In this document: positions 15,603-21,567 of the stretch, in pieces
Layout: each line of letters opens with the position of its first letter
How positions within the stretch are numbered: position 1 is the first letter of the stretch
DNA from: a virus
Direction: 5' to 3' (one strand)
DNA: 22,395 nucleotides
IMG/VR virus record: IMGVR_UViG_3300045999_011926
Location: 1 to 22,395 of that record
Notes under the pieces: model-generated
Seen by the model: the letters and a program-made list of their open reading frames with translations, nothing else
Databases searched by the model: none
Told to the model about the DNA's origin: nothing
Made by a program: the position numbers and the translations under genes

Positions 15603-16481
15603 TCAGTCGTCGCGAGCCAACTTCTCAAACAACTTCATGTCATCATCGTCTTCATCGTCAGACCAAGGAGCAGTTTCCTTTGATGCTGGCTTTTCATCAG
15701 ATGCCTTGCTCTTCGAAGCAGCTGGTGCTCCATCAAGACCAAGAACACGATTTAGTTTGGTCTTTAGCTCATCATAGCTCTTGAAGTGTTTTGGATCGAG
15801 GAAATCCTTAAGTGAATACTCAGACTTCCAAAGCTTCTCCAACTTAGCATCATCACCATCATAAAGTGCAGAAGGCTTGTCGAACTCAGACTTATCATAG
15901 TTCGGATAACCCTCAAACTTACGAATCTTTAGCTTGAAGTTAGCGCCAGCCCAAAAATCAAATGGATTGACAGCCTTCTCGTCTTCGAACTGTGGATTCA
16001 TTGCTTCAGTGATCTTATCAAAGATCTTCTTGCCATACTTGAACAAAAAGACCTTACCCTCATTGTCAGGATTCTTTGGATCGCTAACAACAAGAATGTT
16101 GGAAATGTACTTCATGCGACGCTTCTGCTTGCGAGCAATTTCCTTGTTAGCTTCGATTCCTGAGTTCCAAAGAATTGAATTGTACTCAGAAGCAGGATCT
16201 TTCTGACCAATAGTAGTCAGAGAGTTCTCAATATACCAGCCACCAGGTCCTTGAAATCCATGATCAAAGATACGAACCCAAGGAAGAGCTTCATCACCAT
16301 CTACAGCAGGAGCTGCAAGGAAACGAATTGTGGCAAAGCCGTTACCAGCCTTATCAAGTTCAGGCTTCCAGAACCGTGTATCTTCCGATGAATTAGTTGC
16401 GGGTGTATTGAGCTTTTCTAGCTCGCGTGCCAGCTTATCGATAGAGCCGCTGGACTTCTTTAGTGATGCAAATGTAGACAT
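15603..16481 (-). CDS. 32: Single-stranded DNA-binding protein gp32
   Basis: The product is 292 aa; T4 gp32 is 301 aa. It coats ssDNA during replication, recombination and repair. The N-terminal basic segment (FASLKKSSGSIDKLARELEK), the core (KQKRRMKYISNILVVSDP, then GKVFLFKYGKKIFDK and FDFWAGANFKLKIRKFEGY) and the acidic tail (SDDEDDDDMKLFEKLARDD) match the family layout. There is no cysteine at all, so the T4 His-Cys3 zinc finger is lost; DPASEYNSILWNSG occupies its place. AAAGGA precedes the ATG. Codon choice is visibly richer in G/C than in the tail genes, as expected for an abundant protein. Confidence 0.96.
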   Translation of the reverse strand: MSTFASLKKSSGSIDKLARELEKLNTPATNSSEDTRFWKPELDKAGNGFATIRFLAAPAVDGDEALPWVRIFDHGFQGPGGWYIENSLTTIGQKDPASEYNSILWNSGIEANKEIARKQKRRMKYISNILVVSDPKNPDNEGKVFLFKYGKKIFDKITEAMNPQFEDEKAVNPFDFWAGANFKLKIRKFEGYPNYDKSEFDKPSALYDGDDAKLEKLWKSEYSLKDFLDPKHFKSYDELKTKLNRVLGLDGAPAASKSKASDEKPASKETAPWSDDEDDDDMKLFEKLARDD

Positions 16482-16549: not shown

Positions 16550-16579
16550 ATTATATATCATGCGTTGATTTGAAGTCAA
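16550..16579 (-). promoter_or_regulatory. Sigma70-type promoter of gp32
   Basis: The minus strand has TTGACT (16574-16579), an 18-bp spacer, and TATAAT (16550-16555). The -35 box overlaps the gp59 stop codon, so gp32 can be expressed independently of the upstream operon. The leader to the ATG is about 60 nt. Confidence 0.8.
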
Positions 16580-17184
16580 GGAAAAAATTCACTTTTTACA
16601 ATCTTTTTCATGTTCTTCAAATCAACTCGTTGCAAAACAAATGGAGCATATTTTTCACACTTGATTGCAAACTTGGGCCAAATGATTTCATCTTTTATTT
16701 TTCTTTTCCACATGGGAAGAAAATCGATGATACCATTTAGAATGACAAAGGTCTCCATGGATATTTCATTTCTCATCACCATTGTCAATAATGGTGGATA
16801 TGAATCGCCAGGAATAAAAACTCGATCTAAAAAGACATCATTATCATGTGACCAATCCAAAAGCTTTTTTAAGTCTTGCTTGAAATTATAGGTAATAGAT
16901 TCCAGTCTTTTCTGATATTCAACTAGATTATCAGAAGCTTCTGGTTCAAGCAAATTCATTGACCACAACGAATCGTTCTTGAGAATATTAGCTAGGGTCA
17001 ATGCAATGAATTGGTCACGATCATATTCTTTAGCCAGTCGATAAAATGCAAATTTATCGCGACGAGAAAGAAAAGTCTTCTCCGAAATCTTCACTCTACT
17101 CTTAAAGAAGTCAAATGACTGTCGAGTAAAATGAAGTTTGATCGAATGAAATAACTTGTATGCTTCCAGAGCAACAATTTTCAT
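16576..17184 (-). CDS. 59: gp41 helicase loader gp59
   Basis: The product is 202 aa; T4 gp59 is 217 aa. It loads the gp41 replicative helicase on gp32-coated forks and recombination intermediates. An N-terminal basic region (KLFHSIKLHFTRQSFDFFKS) is followed by the family's RRDKFAFYRLAKEY block; T4 has RRDKYFFQKLSEKY. SMETFVILNGIIDFL matches T4 SFETFILLDSFLNI, and the C-terminal KFAIKCEKYAPFVLQ fits the T4 helical domain. The start overlaps the gp33 stop (ATGA). It sits next to gp32, its binding partner, as in T4. Confidence 0.92.
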   Translation of the reverse strand: MKIVALEAYKLFHSIKLHFTRQSFDFFKSRVKISEKTFLSRRDKFAFYRLAKEYDRDQFIALTLANILKNDSLWSMNLLEPEASDNLVEYQKRLESITYNFKQDLKKLLDWSHDNDVFLDRVFIPGDSYPPLLTMVMRNEISMETFVILNGIIDFLPMWKRKIKDEIIWPKFAIKCEKYAPFVLQRVDLKNMKKIVKSEFFP

Positions 17185-17402
17185 ACTGGCAGTGTATTGC
17201 TTTTAGGTAAAAGATTCAGCTGTGATGCATCGTATGCAATCTTAGCCTTCAATGAATGATTGATCAGATTTGTAACTGATTCAATTTCCAATGAATTGAT
17301 TTCACAAAAATGCATCACAGCATCAATATAGTTTAAATCCTTTTCTTTGACTATTTGTTCAATACTTTTAGCAAAAGAAAGCATTTCATCTTTTGTTGGC
17401 AT
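17181..17402 (-). CDS. 33: Late transcription co-activator gp33
   Basis: The product is 73 aa; T4 gp33 is 112 aa, and short forms are usual in marine T4-like phages. gp33 bridges the sliding clamp and RNA polymerase so that gp55-containing polymerase fires at late promoters. The pattern MPTKDEMLSFAKSIEQIV, then NYIDAVMHFCE, then SLKAKIAYDASQLNLLPKSN is the marine-type gp33 as I know it. Starts and stops overlap both neighbours. Its presence agrees with the TAAATA-type late motifs elsewhere in the window. Confidence 0.88.
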   Translation of the reverse strand: MPTKDEMLSFAKSIEQIVKEKDLNYIDAVMHFCEINSLEIESVTNLINHSLKAKIAYDASQLNLLPKSNTLPV

Positions 17403-18013
17403 TACATGGACCTCAAACGATAGAATATGTGATCATCAATACGAACTGTGCGCTCAACCTTCTTCCATTTAGACCAATGTGGTCTAACATAGTGTGCATG
17501 AAAGAAAACCGCACCATTCGTAATGTCTTCAATATCATTATACTCCATAAGTAGCTCATTTGCAAGAGCAATCGCTTCAGCCCATGCTATCTTTTCAGCA
17601 TGATCCTTTAGATTGTACAGATTTCTTTTTGCTTTACCTTCACATACCCAAGAAAACTGACAACCCTGATAAATGACACCACAGATAGAGTTTTTCCATA
17701 GACCAGCATTAACACGATTGATAATAACTTGACCAACTGCAACTCTACCCTCAAGAGATTGATTGCGAGCCTCCCAATATATTGCTTTAGCCAAGCATTC
17801 TCTTTCCTTTAGATCAACCTGAATTACTATAGTCTCCTGTTCTTCGGATAATGATTCATCTAAATTTACAGACAGGAACGAATCTTCATATTCGTAAATT
17901 CTTTCCTGTTTGGAAATTTGTGCAAATGTGTTTTTTTCTTTATTATCCAAATACACTTTAGAACCAAAAAATCCAATGAATAGGATCGACCCCATCATTA
18001 GAAGTTTATTCAT
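17402..18013 (-). CDS. Cell wall hydrolase of the SleB/CwlJ (Hydrolase_2) family with N-terminal membrane segment
   Basis: The product is 203 aa. Residues about 4-22 (LLMMGSILFIGFFGSKVYL) are one membrane segment with a short basic start, so the enzyme may be a signal-anchor type endolysin; a classical signal peptide cleavage site is not obvious. After an acidic linker, the Hydrolase_2 domain runs from about residue 70 to 198: CLAKAIYWEARNQSLEGRVA with E81 as likely catalytic acid, then GQVIINRV, ICGVIYQGCQFSW and GAVFFHAHYVRP. The family cleaves peptidoglycan glycan strands. It lies in the gp33-gp59 operon, not with the tail genes, which favours host lysis or early wall remodelling over a virion role. 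Confidence 0.88.
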   Translation of the reverse strand: MNKLLMMGSILFIGFFGSKVYLDNKEKNTFAQISKQERIYEYEDSFLSVNLDESLSEEQETIVIQVDLKERECLAKAIYWEARNQSLEGRVAVGQVIINRVNAGLWKNSICGVIYQGCQFSWVCEGKAKRNLYNLKDHAEKIAWAEAIALANELLMEYNDIEDITNGAVFFHAHYVRPHWSKWKKVERTVRIDDHIFYRLRSM

Positions 18014-18264: not shown

Positions 18265-18334
18265 GTGCGTGGATCGCGAAGCATCAACTTCCATCCACTC
18301 TATGTCTAATAGAAAAACCACAGGAGACACAGCT

Positions 18335-18793
18335 ATGTCTATTTATCATAAGCATCATATTGTTCCAAAACACATGGGCGGATCAGACGAATCTAGCAAT
18401 ATTATTCGTTTAACGCTTGAAGAACATGCTGAGGAACATCTCAAATTGTATAAAAAATATGGTAAAATAGAAGATCAAATAGCTTGGCAAGCACTAACAA
18501 GCATGATCACAAAACAAGAAGCAATAATAAAATTACAGAAAAATGCACAAAGAAAAGGTGGAATTAAAAGCGCAGAATTATATCCAGAAAAAGCATCTTT
18601 GGGTGGAAAAGCACTTTGGGCAAAAGAAGGAATGAGAGAACATCTTAGAGCAAAAAGAATCGAGCAAAGTTTAATCGGTAAACATCCAATGCAAGGAAAA
18701 AAGCAAAATAGAGTGTGTTGTTTTTTCTGTAAAAAAGAATATGCTTACAATGTTTTTGTGAAACATTGTAAAAAGAGTCCGTTCTGTTTCTAG
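18335..18793 (+). CDS. HNH homing endonuclease
   Basis: I start at the ATG at 18335 (MSIYHKHHIVPKH), which has GGAG 8 nt upstream; upstream in-frame starts at 18269 (GTG) and 18302 have poorer context. The product is 152 aa. The HNH motif is KHHIVPKHMGGSDESSNII, followed by LTLEEHAEEHLKLYKKYG, a layout typical of free-standing phage HNH enzymes. The C-terminus has four Cys and a His (VCCFFCKKEY, KHCKKSPFC), possibly a small zinc-binding DNA module. It is the only plus-strand gene between two minus-strand operons and ends within a couple of bases of the tmRNA 3' end, suggesting a mobile insertion beside the tmRNA. Confidence 0.88.
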   Translation: MSIYHKHHIVPKHMGGSDESSNIIRLTLEEHAEEHLKLYKKYGKIEDQIAWQALTSMITKQEAIIKLQKNAQRKGGIKSAELYPEKASLGGKALWAKEGMREHLRAKRIEQSLIGKHPMQGKKQNRVCCFFCKKEYAYNVFVKHCKKSPFCF

Positions 18794-18794
18794 G

Positions 18795-18944
18795 TGGAAC
18801 TCATACCCAATGAGATTATGCCGCTAAGGCAATCTCAAACGGAGCATTATCATTTGCTGCGTTTATTGTTTTGGACTAATTGTCGGTCGTTCCTTACCGA
18901 TTACCTCCGCAACTTTTACACTTCTGTCGATCCTTGGCACCCCC
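18795..18944 (-). ncRNA. tmRNA coding piece (5' half, transcribed second) with tag ORF
   Basis: It starts GGGGGTGCCAAGGATCGACA at 18944, matching the tmRNA 5' consensus apart from GGATCGAC for the usual GGATTCGAC. A pseudoknot-like region with stem TCGGT/ACCGA follows, then an A-rich lead AATAAAC and the resume codon GCA (18858-18860). The tag runs from 18860 to the TAA at 18816-18818. The stop sits in helix P5, formed by GAGATT (18831-18836) and AATCTC (18812-18817). A further small hairpin CTCAT/ATGAG follows. The exact 3' end is not determinable by eye. Confidence 0.9.
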
Positions 18945-19026
18945 AGTATAGATATATCAGTTTGGATTCGAACCTTATTCTAGTCTTGTCGATCTGCGCT
19001 TCCCACAGTGCTGACCGACATATCCA
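18945..19026 (-). other. tmRNA intervening transcribed spacer
   Basis: These 82 nt lie between the CCA of the acceptor piece and the 5' G-run of the coding piece. In known permuted tmRNAs the spacer is removed (RNase P at the 5' side, 3' trimming after CCA). It contains GGTTCGAATCC, which mimics a tRNA T-loop, but the flanks do not form a T-stem or acceptor stem, so I do not call a tRNA. Confidence 0.75.
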
Positions 19027-19088
19027 TGGTGGAGGTGGCGGCATTGAAGCCGCGTCCAGACAGTTTATTATGTTGTTATCAACAGTAA
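19027..19088 (-). ncRNA. tmRNA acceptor piece (3' half, transcribed first)
   Basis: It runs from the inferred start site near 19088 to the encoded CCA at 19027-19029. Elements in order: a hairpin TGTTG-ATAA-CAACA, the P2 strand CTGTC (19059-19063), GGAC, a T-arm GCGGC-TTCAAT-GCCGC (19038-19053), acceptor strand CACCTCC (19031-19037), A, CCA. The T-loop is 6 nt where 7 is standard, closed by C-G instead of the usual G-C. Confidence 0.88.
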
Positions 19089-19094
19089 TATCGT

Positions 19095-19123
19095 ATTATA
19101 GTCTATTATTTATGACTTGTCAA
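19095..19123 (-). promoter_or_regulatory. Perfect-consensus sigma70 promoter of the tmRNA, with embedded late-like motif
   Basis: The minus strand has TTGACA (19118-19123), a 17-bp spacer and TATAAT (19095-19100): both hexamers and spacing are consensus. The spacer contains CATAAATA (19107-19114), 7 of 8 with the T4 late element. The promoter overlaps the 3' end of the exonuclease gene. Confidence 0.88.
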
Positions 19124-19762
19124 TAAAGAAATGAACAACTTCTTGTATTTCGTCAAATTGGCTAGAATACAACTGGACTCAGTCTCTGCCGAAGCAAATA
19201 ACAACACTCCCAAGTCAATCTTCACACCAATTCTTTCCTCATACGCCAAAGAATATGCTGACAGCTGCATAAAATACTTCTTAACCTTATCCATGCTAGA
19301 ATCAACTTCAGACTTAGTCGTCTTGAAATCAATGATTGCTGGATACCCATCAAATGTACCTATTGCATCGCATCTTCCTGCAAACTTATATTCATCTGAA
19401 TATAATGGTGCTTCAATAGCATATACCTCATCGATTTGATCAATATATTTCCTCAATTCAGAGAACATGCCTTGAACATCTGGCATGTGACCTCGCGTTG
19501 GTTTTTCTTCATTGAGCAAATACCGTTCACAGACTTGATGTAGATTTTTTCCGCGTCGGGTCGAAACACCAGACACTCGCTTGGCTTCATCTTCTCCAAC
19601 TCTATTTTGCCATTCCTTCAAACCCTCATTTGGTAGTCGTGACAAAATATTAGTGACGGAAGGATACACATTTCCTTCTGGAGTTCTATAGTATCTCCTT
19701 CCGTCAACATACTCTTCCTCAAGATTTGGAAGATTCACAAATGCATGATGAAACTTTTTCAT
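19106..19762 (-). CDS. PD-(D/E)XK exonuclease, Cas4/MGME1-like
   Basis: The product is 218 aa. Motifs in order: a helical H motif GKNLHQVCERYL (H75), a Glu strand YAIEAPL (E117), FAGRCDAIG (D132), PAIIDFKTTK (D145-x-K147), and the QxxxY motif QLSAYSLAY (Q166, Y170). This is the full RecB/Cas4/MGME1-type nuclease set, here without the Cas4 cysteine cluster. Marine T4-like phages commonly carry this exonuclease near replication genes; a role in recombination or host DNA breakdown is inferred. It is preceded by a 53-aa membrane ORF with TAATG overlap, and its 3' end carries the tmRNA promoter. Confidence 0.88.
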   Translation of the reverse strand: MKKFHHAFVNLPNLEEEYVDGRRYYRTPEGNVYPSVTNILSRLPNEGLKEWQNRVGEDEAKRVSGVSTRRGKNLHQVCERYLLNEEKPTRGHMPDVQGMFSELRKYIDQIDEVYAIEAPLYSDEYKFAGRCDAIGTFDGYPAIIDFKTTKSEVDSSMDKVKKYFMQLSAYSLAYEERIGVKIDLGVLLFASAETESSCILANLTKYKKLFISLLTSHK

Positions 19763-19924: not shown

Positions 19925-20080
19925 TCAAATATATCCTAACTCCAGTTTAGAGATGATATAGGACTTCACCAATGCACTACGCACGATATCTTCCTTACCA
20001 AACTCGATCTTTTCAAAGCAAGACATTTTATCAAGAATATTCATGAATGTCAAGAGTCCTTTGTACAATTCATATGCCAT
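19925..20080 (-). CDS. Small hypothetical protein, 51 aa (or 39 aa from 20044)
   Basis: The open frame reads MAYELYKGLLTFMNILDKM, then SCFEKIEFGKEDIVRSALVK, ending SKLELGYI. From the ATG at 20080 it overlaps the end of the GIY-YIG gene out of frame. An internal ATG at 20044 has AAAGGA upstream and gives 39 aa. The C-terminal part looks like an ordinary mixed-charge helix. The stop is 1 bp before the next start (TGATATG), which supports translation. It could be the remnant of a gene cut by insertion of the GIY-YIG gene, but I see no matching N-terminal piece between GIY-YIG and phoH. Confidence 0.5.
   Translation of the reverse strand: MAYELYKGLLTFMNILDKMSCFEKIEFGKEDIVRSALVKSYIISKLELGYI
20025..20053 (-). 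promoter_or_regulatory. Sigma70-type promoter downstream of the GIY-YIG gene
   Basis: The minus strand has TTGACA (20048-20053), 17 bp, then TAAAAT (20025-20030). The -35 box overlaps the GIY-YIG stop codon. It would drive the 53-aa membrane ORF and the exonuclease independently of the mobile gene. Confidence 0.6.
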
Positions 20081-20778
20081 CTACTATAATTTGATTTATC
20101 TATAGTTTTATTGCAAACAACACAGTGTATTTTTTCTCTTTGTTTAGCTTTTTCTCTCATCTTAGATAAACTGTCGTCATTATGTTTTTTACCATACATA
20201 GGATTATTGTGTTCGCTAAAGAGTCTTTTTCCAATATCACTAATTTTTTTTCTTGTTTCTTCCGAAACAATTCTTCCCGTTAGTTTTTTTGATATAATAT
20301 TTCTAGTTTTTTCACTATGAGTTTTACCATACATAGGATTTTTTTCTTTTGTTCTATTTAATTTTTTATGTGCCTCGCTCATCTTTCTTTTTGTTTCCTC
20401 TGAATGTTTTTTATCATACATACCAACAATTTTATTTTTGTGCGATTCTTTTACTCTAGTTGAAATGTTTTTCTTTTGTGTCTTTGTAAATTTATGACCA
20501 AGCGTCCCATCACCACCATCTGTTAAATTGTATCCATATTCGCGAGTATTATATTCTTTTATCCAAAAAGATTCTCTTAAAACATTCTCTGTTTTTTCAA
20601 TTTCTTCTATACTAAAATTATTCACACCATACTTTATCATTGCTTCGTGTAATGCATATCTTTTTGATTTATTAACAGTTCTTATGTGTTCTATCCATCT
20701 ATGCTCTATGGATTTTTTAGTGATACCAACATACTTTTTGTTGTTTACATTATTTGTTATCAGATATATGATATACAT
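20050..20778 (-). CDS. GIY-YIG homing endonuclease with NUMOD3 repeats
   Basis: The product is 242 aa. The N-terminal GIY-YIG domain spans about residues 1-95: YIIYLITN, KKYVGIT, RWIEHI with the catalytic Arg, and ESFWIKEYNTREYGYNLTDG with the catalytic Glu. It is followed by four NUMOD3-type DNA-binding motifs (HSEETKRKMSEA, HSEKTRNIISKKL, VSEETRKKISDI, HNDDSLSKMREK) separated by NPMYGK, and a C-terminal CVVCNKT...HMNC zinc-binding-like tail. This is a free-standing SegF/I-TevI-like mobile endonuclease. The gene is markedly more AT-rich than its neighbours, which suits recent acquisition. Confidence 0.94.
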   Translation of the reverse strand: MYIIYLITNNVNNKKYVGITKKSIEHRWIEHIRTVNKSKRYALHEAMIKYGVNNFSIEEIEKTENVLRESFWIKEYNTREYGYNLTDGGDGTLGHKFTKTQKKNISTRVKESHKNKIVGMYDKKHSEETKRKMSEAHKKLNRTKEKNPMYGKTHSEKTRNIISKKLTGRIVSEETRKKISDIGKRLFSEHNNPMYGKKHNDDSLSKMREKAKQREKIHCVVCNKTIDKSNYSRWHMNCTKDS

Positions 20779-20862: not shown

Positions 20863-21567
20863 TCATGTCAGGTGTCCCTTTTCATCTAATTCCATTCGCG
20901 CAAATAGATATTCCTTCACAAATCCAGATCTGACAACATCGTTTTTTGTAAATTCAATAATTGAAAATGTGGAAATAATTTTAGCAATTTTAAGTAAATT
21001 ATAAATACCACTTTGTTCTTTCATATAATCTTTTTGTCTAAAATCTCCACAAAAAATTATTTTTGAATTTTCTCCAACTCGCGTCAATATAGTGTGTGTT
21101 TCCATATCTGTCATGTTTTGACACTCATCGACAATGATAATCGCATCATTGAAAGTGACACCACGCAAAAATGAAGTTGTGGTAAAGTCTAGCATATGTT
21201 TCATCTTAAGTATATCATATCCATCACCGCGACCAAACAAATCATCACAGATCATCTTATATGGCTCTTCATACACTCTGGCTTTTTCCTTGGCTGAGCC
21301 TGGAAGAAAGCCCATGTCACGCGAAGGAACTACGCTACGTATGACAACTATGTGTTTGTATTTGGATTTGTTTAACACTTCATTAAGTGCCAGATATAGA
21401 GAGATGTATGTTTTGCCTGTTCCTGCAACTCCGTGCAGAAGAAGATGTTTGCCTTGTTCAAAGGCCTTGAATGTAGATGATTGATTTAGGGTCAATGGTG
21501 TTATTGTTCTTAATGAAAAATGATTTTGTTGCTGTTGTTGATTTAACTTCTTCTTTTTCTTTGACAT
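20863..21567 (-). CDS. phoH: PhoH-like ATPase
   Basis: The product is 234 aa. Walker A is GVAGTGKT at residues 46-53, followed by IRSVVPSRDMGFLPG at about 76-90, a PhoH-family signature, and Walker B IIIVDECQN (D147, E148). FCGDFRQKD is the sensor-like motif. The first 15 residues are a Lys run and a Gln run (KKKKK, QQQQQ), probably disordered. PhoH-like genes are very common in marine phages; their biochemical role is unsettled (RNA helicase/ATPase activity is known for some bacterial relatives), and the phosphate-starvation link is by name only. A strong hairpin lies in its leader. Confidence 0.94.
   Translation of the reverse strand: MSKKKKKLNQQQQQNHFSLRTITPLTLNQSSTFKAFEQGKHLLLHGVAGTGKTYISLYLALNEVLNKSKYKHIVVIRSVVPSRDMGFLPGSAKEKARVYEEPYKMICDDLFGRGDGYDILKMKHMLDFTTTSFLRGVTFNDAIIIVDECQNMTDMETHTILTRVGENSKIIFCGDFRQKDYMKEQSGIYNLLKIAKIISTFSIIEFTKNDVVRSGFVKEYLFARMELDEKGHLT

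Follow-up and report, generated by a model that had tools for sequence, protein, structure and literature searches.

The 22,395-nucleotide stretch of viral DNA analysed here (IMG/VR record IMGVR_UViG_3300045999_011926, referred to below as the window) carries genes of T4 type, specifying baseplate, tail and head-closure proteins, gp32, gp59 and PhoH. On its minus strand, at positions 18770-19123, lies a complete circularly permuted tmRNA gene of alphaproteobacterial type, identified by two covariance models and by ARAGORN, and within the spacer (IVS) of this gene lies a second, tRNA-like RNA that we call element X. The gene, its parts and its neighbours are arranged as follows.

15603-16481, minus strand: gp32-like single-strand binding protein, a synteny marker (phrog_269/phrog_224 search)
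16576-17184, minus strand: gp59-like helicase loader, a synteny marker (phrog_269/phrog_224 search)
17402-18013, minus strand: cell wall hydrolase, downstream of the tmRNA (PF07486, E 1.9e-26)
18269-18793, plus strand: HNH-type homing endonuclease ORF, convergent (phrog_655, E 2.6e-12)
18770-18815, minus strand: 3' tail of the tmRNA coding piece, with the stem GAGTTC/GGACTC (18802-18797/18780-18775) and then five T (models, fold)
18816-18944, minus strand: tmRNA 5' half through the tag (RF04321, RF01849, ARAGORN)
18945-19026, minus strand: IVS of 82 nt with a 13-bp closing helix (fold and comparison of viral permuted tmRNAs)
18955-19020, minus strand: element X, a tRNA-like RNA of about 66 nt inside the IVS (IMG/VR copies, covariation, model R1)
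19027-19075, minus strand: tmRNA 3' half, the acceptor piece, with an approximate 5' boundary at 19075 (RF04321 and RF01849 alignments, ARAGORN)
19095-19123, minus strand: tmRNA promoter, sigma-70 TTGACA-17-TATAAT, matching 12 of 12 consensus positions
19106-19762, minus strand: PD-(D/E)XK exonuclease, directly upstream of the tmRNA (phrog_298, E 2.5e-60; PF12705; 24 viral relatives)
20050-20778, minus strand: GIY-YIG/NUMOD3 homing endonuclease, between PhoH and the exonuclease (PF01541, PF07460)
20863-21567, minus strand: PhoH-like gene, a synteny marker (PF02562, E 5e-46; phrog_170)

Anatomy of the permuted tmRNA gene

Read along the minus strand, the gene passes from a sigma-70 promoter through the 3' half with its CCA, the IVS and the 5' half with its tag to a hairpin and five T residues (18774-18770). 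Two Rfam models matched it over their full lengths: RF04321 (tmRNA_permuted) at 19089-18816 with 105.1 bits (E 6.7e-20, model positions 1-213 of 213) and RF01849 (alpha_tmRNA) at 19139-18771 with 83.6 bits (E 1.3e-21, model positions 1-355 of 355). ARAGORN called a permuted tmRNA with the tag AANDNAPFEIALAA followed by a stop, and the precursor has a predicted fold of -105 kcal/mol, as against -82.2 (sd 4.7) for shuffled sequences (z -4.8). The acceptor stem is formed by CACCTCC (19037-19031) and GGGGGTG (18944-18938), with A73 at 19030 and the encoded CCA at 19029-19027, and in helix P2 CTGTC (19063-19059) stands opposite GACAG (18928-18924). The T-arm, GCGGC-TTCAAT-GCCGC (19038-19053), has a loop of 6 nt. 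The tag reading frame (18860-18816) specifies 14 residues and ends in TAA, and the type of tail that follows it occurs in 43 viral contigs. The -35 hexamer of the promoter overlaps the end of the exonuclease gene, and both hexamers are conserved among L122-L130, which are near relatives.

A preliminary description of this DNA had proposed a two-piece permuted tmRNA on the minus strand, with the 3' half preceding the 5' half, and its coordinates, its 82-nt spacer (19026-18945) and its two stems, the 7-bp acceptor stem and P2, are borne out. It had named the Rfam tmRNA models and ARAGORN as checks, and both return the gene; together with the T4-type neighbours they also uphold its view that a host-type (alphaproteobacterial) tmRNA resides in a T4-like phage. 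The extent it gave, 18795-19088, was correctly positioned but a little too narrow, as the gene reaches from the promoter to the T-run.

The tmRNA shares with RF01849 and RF04321 the gene order, the acceptor stem, P2 and T-arm, the tag frame and the ACCT-AACAGAA tail motif, but differs from them in its T-loop TTCAAT, of 6 rather than 7 nt, and in a long IVS that embeds an RNA. The 6-nt loop, where 7 is normal, is common to this phage clade and to one-piece tmRNAs of Omnitrophota, a sharing that is apparently convergent. A genome scan for the host by means of this motif returned four Omnitrophota one-piece tmRNAs and one misbinned Thermoleophilia contig, and did not find the host. The contig, from a Thermoleophilia MAG (L227, JAFMJQ010000169.1), is a misbinned piece of this phage group with its tmRNA.

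The tmRNA gene is maintained at one locus in related phages

The exonuclease was found in 24 IMG/VR contigs, and a tmRNA lies directly 3' of it in all 23 relatives of at least 70% identity, detected by ARAGORN in 12 and by covariance model in 11. That half of the relatives lack the gene was considered and rejected, since ARAGORN misses 11 loci and the Rfam models detect a tmRNA in every one. The isolated phages HTVC008M, which provides the best isolate match to the window's gp32 (66%), and Melnitz carry permuted tmRNAs of 90.6 and 113.4 bits, respectively, and in both the gene follows PhoH and the PD-(D/E)XK exonuclease and precedes gp59 and gp32, as in the window. This common locus argues that the gene has been maintained and not newly captured; of the two possibilities raised in the preliminary description, "captured or maintains", the second is the better supported, and the comparisons support a probable inheritance of the gene over a fresh capture. 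The HTVC008M gene (NC_020484, 145161-145370; tag ANFNEYALAA) is absent from the GenBank annotation.

Permuted tmRNAs of phages are already known (Melnitz, PMC9004378), and that of the window is one more. Two-piece phage tmRNAs numbered 53 among 18,146 phage genomes in 2022, mostly marine or aquatic (PMC9004378), and a database paper of 2025 counts 79 unique tmRNAs from phages, all forms taken together (PMC11915505); the preliminary description over-rated the novelty of the tmRNA because such genes had been reported in 2022. The tmRNAs of Melnitz and HTVC008M have in common with the window's the RNA family, the locus and an IVS helix immediately after the CCA, but they differ from it in tag, tail and IVS, and element X is missing in both. 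The Melnitz ssrA region is reported with a glutamine riboswitch (PMC9004378), and an Rfam search of the window found none. Permuted ssrA genes also occur on large alphaproteobacterial plasmids (L250, L252 and L251, the last being Bosea sp. RAC05 plasmid pBSY19_1).

From promoter to CCA the window's tmRNA is 92-95% identical to those of L122-L130, and its 5' half is 93-94% identical to theirs. The tag and tail instead match other phages (L373, 89%; L340, 86%), and the IVS matches L141 and yet another set of contigs. Judged by these alignments, the tmRNA gene of the window is a mosaic. The HNH and GIY-YIG genes, both with a phrog_655 match, flank the exonuclease-tmRNA pair, and the end of the HNH ORF overlaps the tmRNA tail in antisense by about 22 nt. 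Targeting of tmRNA genes by the HNH gene was considered and rejected, as none of 80 loci with HNH relatives has an ARAGORN-called tmRNA nearby. Two more near-perfect sigma-70 promoters lie on the minus strand (18254-18226 and 20053-20025; 11 of 12 consensus positions, TG before the -10), which suggests that the locus may hold a run of early transcription units.

Features consistent with a functional tmRNA

All the determinants of alanylation, G3-U70, A73 and CCA, are present in the window's tmRNA. The G3-U70 pair, which is the identity pair of alanine, occurs in every one of the 52 distinct permuted tmRNAs of viruses that were parsed, and 82 of 83 distinct tag frames end in LAA, MAA, VAA or IAA, both statistics leaning on genes selected by ARAGORN, which itself favours such features. 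Each of the last two tag positions uses all four alanine codons, and relatives have the same tag ends with different codons; this synonymous usage indicates that it is the peptide that is kept. A search for SmpB genes in 14 related phage records, Melnitz and HTVC008M included, found none, with the same search positive in 10 of 14 control genomes, which points to the use of host SmpB; reliance of the phage on the host protein is most likely. With these features the phage tmRNA gene looks functional.

The spacer and its closing helix

The 13-bp closing helix of the IVS starts directly after the CCA and ends 4 nt before G1. Nearly all viral IVSs form a helix in this position, from just behind the CCA to about 4 nt short of G1, and the helices differ in sequence. 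Of the 52 distinct permuted tmRNAs from viruses, 44 have a helix of at least 8 bp, and the mean length is 9.7 bp, versus 3.8 bp in shuffled sequences. Neither RF04321 nor RF01849 contains base pairs within the IVS. The helix was rejected as a phage speciality: a similar hairpin is visible by eye in the plasmid-borne tmRNAs of Bosea and Methylobacterium, and its occurrence in these two alphaproteobacterial tmRNAs implies that the helix is probably general. A long spacer is not required, as the IVS of a relative's permuted tmRNA (L244, 2294-2614) measures only 9 nt. Neither ARAGORN nor Rfam found an intact tRNA in the spacer of the window. The preliminary description had the length of this spacer right and missed its content, a conserved tRNA-like RNA that is the most unusual part of the locus.

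Element X recurs in tRNA and tmRNA settings

The interior of the IVS matched other contigs, in some cases outside any tmRNA. With a pattern built from this interior, element X was found in 98 virus stretches of IMG/VR, every copy being in an uncultured virus contig; blastn gave no match among isolated phages (50,697 records) or among plasmids (72,556). Its 67 distinct placings comprise 22 in tRNA arrays, 16 in tmRNA IVSs, 14 upstream of a tmRNA and 15 elsewhere (without a tRNA or tmRNA within 400 nt), so that 52 of the 67 are in tRNA or tmRNA settings, and the tRNAs that flank X are all on its strand. A covariance model of the element, R1, detected one strong copy per record in each of 33 X-bearing records, including records of 115-160 kb, and those weak "second copies" that were checked proved to be tRNAs. 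Over 796 kb of other loci the only match of R1 below E 0.01 was the known copy in L066.

Most IVSs are without X, and R1 did not detect it in HTVC008M, Melnitz or the close relatives L136 and L137, which shows that the tmRNA does not need it. Among IVS carriers the X core has a mean identity of 88% as against 63-65% for the tmRNA bodies, and between the window and L386 the values are 98% and 61%. No covariance model of the Rfam 15 families, GOLLD and ROOL included, matched element X, and a literature search limited to open-licence papers found no description of it. As far as our tools show, this nested RNA is new.

Element X resembles a tRNA without an anticodon arm

In the window, X consists of a 7-bp acceptor-like stem (19020-19014/18961-18955); after two linker bases, a D-arm-like hairpin of 4-5 bp with the loop GTGGGA (19011-18996); a 3-bp hairpin with a GACAA loop in place of the anticodon arm (18993-18983); and a T-loop, GGTTCGAATCC (18974-18964), of the form GG-TTCGAAT-CC. 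No CCA is encoded. Covariation was scored on an alignment of 57 ungapped copies, against a structure assigned by eye; 86% of the cells are paired in it, and 16 of its 22 pairs show double changes. The score of 0.529 compares with 0.160 for shuffled alignments, none of 500 shuffles reached the observed value, and sliding the partners gave at most 0.142. The search pattern placed no constraint on the columns of the 12 outer pairs or of pairs 22-29, 36-46, 37-45 and 38-44, and the covariation seen there therefore does not stem from the way in which copies were gathered; the invariance of the core columns in part does. Of the 57 sequences, 55-57 retain pairs 9-74 to 15-68, and the pairs further out hold in 50 and 42, a drop that delimits the 7-bp acceptor-like stem.

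An anticodon arm of normal size is missing, and all 57 aligned copies have the 3-bp stem and the GACAA loop, a loop that belonged to the search pattern. The weak point of the likeness to tRNA is the T-stem, where just two pairs are standard and RNAalifold favours a different pairing (GAAC 49-52 with GUUC 56-59); two core stems contain an A-C mismatch in most sequences. Models of tRNA do not see X: RF00005 gave no match in the window's spacer at E of 10 or less and ARAGORN gave none, and in L407, L419, L405, L448 and L455 RF00005 did not match X at E of 5 or less and did detect the neighbouring tRNAs. In the opposite direction, weak R1 hits in seven loci are true tRNAs, 10 of 12 being in register with tRNA base 1 at 6-8 nt into the hit, and a further weak hit (L448, 905) overlaps an Rfam tRNA at an offset of 8. 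That R1 picks up true tRNAs in register indicates a likeness to a tRNA lacking its anticodon arm.

Element X thus resembles an anticodon-arm-less tRNA, and the usual tests place it outside the tRNA family. With tRNA (RF00005) it shares the 7-bp acceptor stem, a D-arm with GG in the loop and the T-loop TTCGAAT, but it lacks both a normal-sized anticodon arm and an encoded CCA, and its T-stem has 2 bp. Like T4 rnaC and rnaD (NC_000866), GOLLD and ROOL (PMC12286853), it is a phage non-coding RNA in or near tRNA arrays; all of these are larger than X, and GOLLD and ROOL are Rfam families whereas X matches none. Identity with rnaC or rnaD was rejected, as R1 matches neither. One permuted tmRNA gene with an intact tRNA-Ala in its spacer is known from a nominally archaeal MAG (PMC11915505). 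This gene, GCA-2688965__sp002688965.2, is like that of the window in having a tRNA-shaped RNA in a permuted tmRNA spacer, but it is a single case of an ordinary tRNA, whereas the insert described here is anticodon-less and recurs in many phages.

Two further elements were found in the same kinds of site. Element Y, with the core CATGAGCAGGTT...CCGCTGGTTACGCCAATCGTAAGTG, occupies the tmRNA IVS in L003, L177 and L203 and lies between tRNAs in L444 and L466; element Z, TAAACTGGACGCAGG..., occupies the IVS in L007, L053, L055 and L087 and lies between tRNAs in L448, L452, L455 and L465. The presence of X, Y and Z in both kinds of site indicates that one set of small RNAs is common to the spacers of phage tmRNAs and the gaps between arrayed tRNAs.

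Discussion

We consider it probable that the phage owns a permuted ssrA gene that works, and that the spacer of this gene houses a second small RNA. Host RNA polymerase would start at the sigma-70 promoter, a strong one, and produce a single precursor. Excision of the IVS by RNase P and 3'-end enzymes is known for the permuted tmRNA family, and here the host enzymes would, to judge from the helices, leave two pieces joined by the acceptor stem and P2. AlaRS would charge the acceptor piece by way of G3-U70 and A73, host SmpB would deliver the charged tmRNA to stalled ribosomes, and the tag, ending in ALAA, would mark the stalled protein for proteolysis and free the ribosome. The benefits put forward in the preliminary description, support of translation during mRNA breakdown or redirection of tagged proteins, are hypothetical. 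The excised spacer would carry X, and since X is found within tmRNA spacers, ahead of tmRNAs and among arrayed tRNAs, it is probably freed by the same tRNA-processing enzymes.

X is single-copy and independent of any one neighbour, which argues for an action in trans and against a mere processing signal. Our guess is that X most likely acts as a tRNA mimic and may, for example, be bound by a host or phage protein that recognises the elbow or the acceptor. The chances seem to us about even that X is the first of a class of anticodon-less, trans-acting phage tRNA mimics housed in tRNA arrays and tmRNA spacers, with Y and Z making the spacer a general docking site, as the occurrence of at least these two unrelated elements in the same two kinds of site suggests.

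As an alternative, X could act in cis as a signal for processing: the tRNA-like fold would recruit RNase P and a 3' endonuclease to cut on both sides and release the adjoining tmRNA halves or tRNAs, and X would lie idle after excision. Acceptor stem and T-loop are the usual handles of RNase P, and X has both, in places where cuts are needed, whether in IVSs (16), upstream of tmRNAs (14) or between tRNAs (22). Such a signal would be required in each IVS and in each gap between tRNAs, yet there is one X per genome and most IVSs are without it. For 15 copies the nearest tRNA or tmRNA, if any, is more than 400 nt away, and conservation of the GACAA loop and of the D-arm-like core goes further than cleavage calls for; we regard this explanation as possible but rather unlikely. 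It is less probable still, in our estimate, that X is the remnant of a decayed tRNA which recombination has carried among insertion-tolerant regions such as the IVS, as a passenger either selfish or neutral. In favour of this are the far greater likeness of X between phages than of the surrounding tmRNA bodies, the mosaic make-up of the window's tmRNA and the homing endonucleases on either side of it. P1 of X has been rewritten pair by pair at all 12 positions around a fixed core, which speaks for purifying selection on structure and not for decay, and an element that spreads would hardly stay at one copy per genome.

Another explanation concerns the tmRNA itself, which might serve as a competitor or decoy that blocks host trans-translation. 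Phage DS6A, in a report cited in PMC11915505, has a tag-less tmRNA-like RNA that blocks this process, and a phage might gain by shielding its own proteins from proteolysis. The tag frame of the window is intact, with an ending conserved at the level of amino acids, and the alanylation determinants are complete, features that make a decoy very improbable. A bacterial or chimeric origin of the contig, with the tmRNA belonging to a host as its alphaproteobacterial fold might suggest, is scarcely credible given the T4-type genes around it (baseplate, gp32, gp59, PhoH, exonuclease), the gene order of isolated phages HTVC008M and Melnitz, and the same exonuclease adjoining a tmRNA in 23 other viral contigs.

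By itself the tmRNA lengthens a known list by one phage, and it indicates that genes of this kind have a long history and a stable position in T4-like phages of heterotrophs. Element X would turn the spacer of permuted tmRNA, so far treated as waste, into a gene slot, and would mean that phages make a tRNA-shaped RNA unable to decode. Such a molecule would point to an interaction so far unseen, be it with tRNA processing, tRNA modification, translation factors or tRNA-targeting defences. If the class of trans-acting mimics is real, maturation of the tmRNA would also deliver a second RNA, and X would be one more possible reason why phage tmRNA genes stay permuted.
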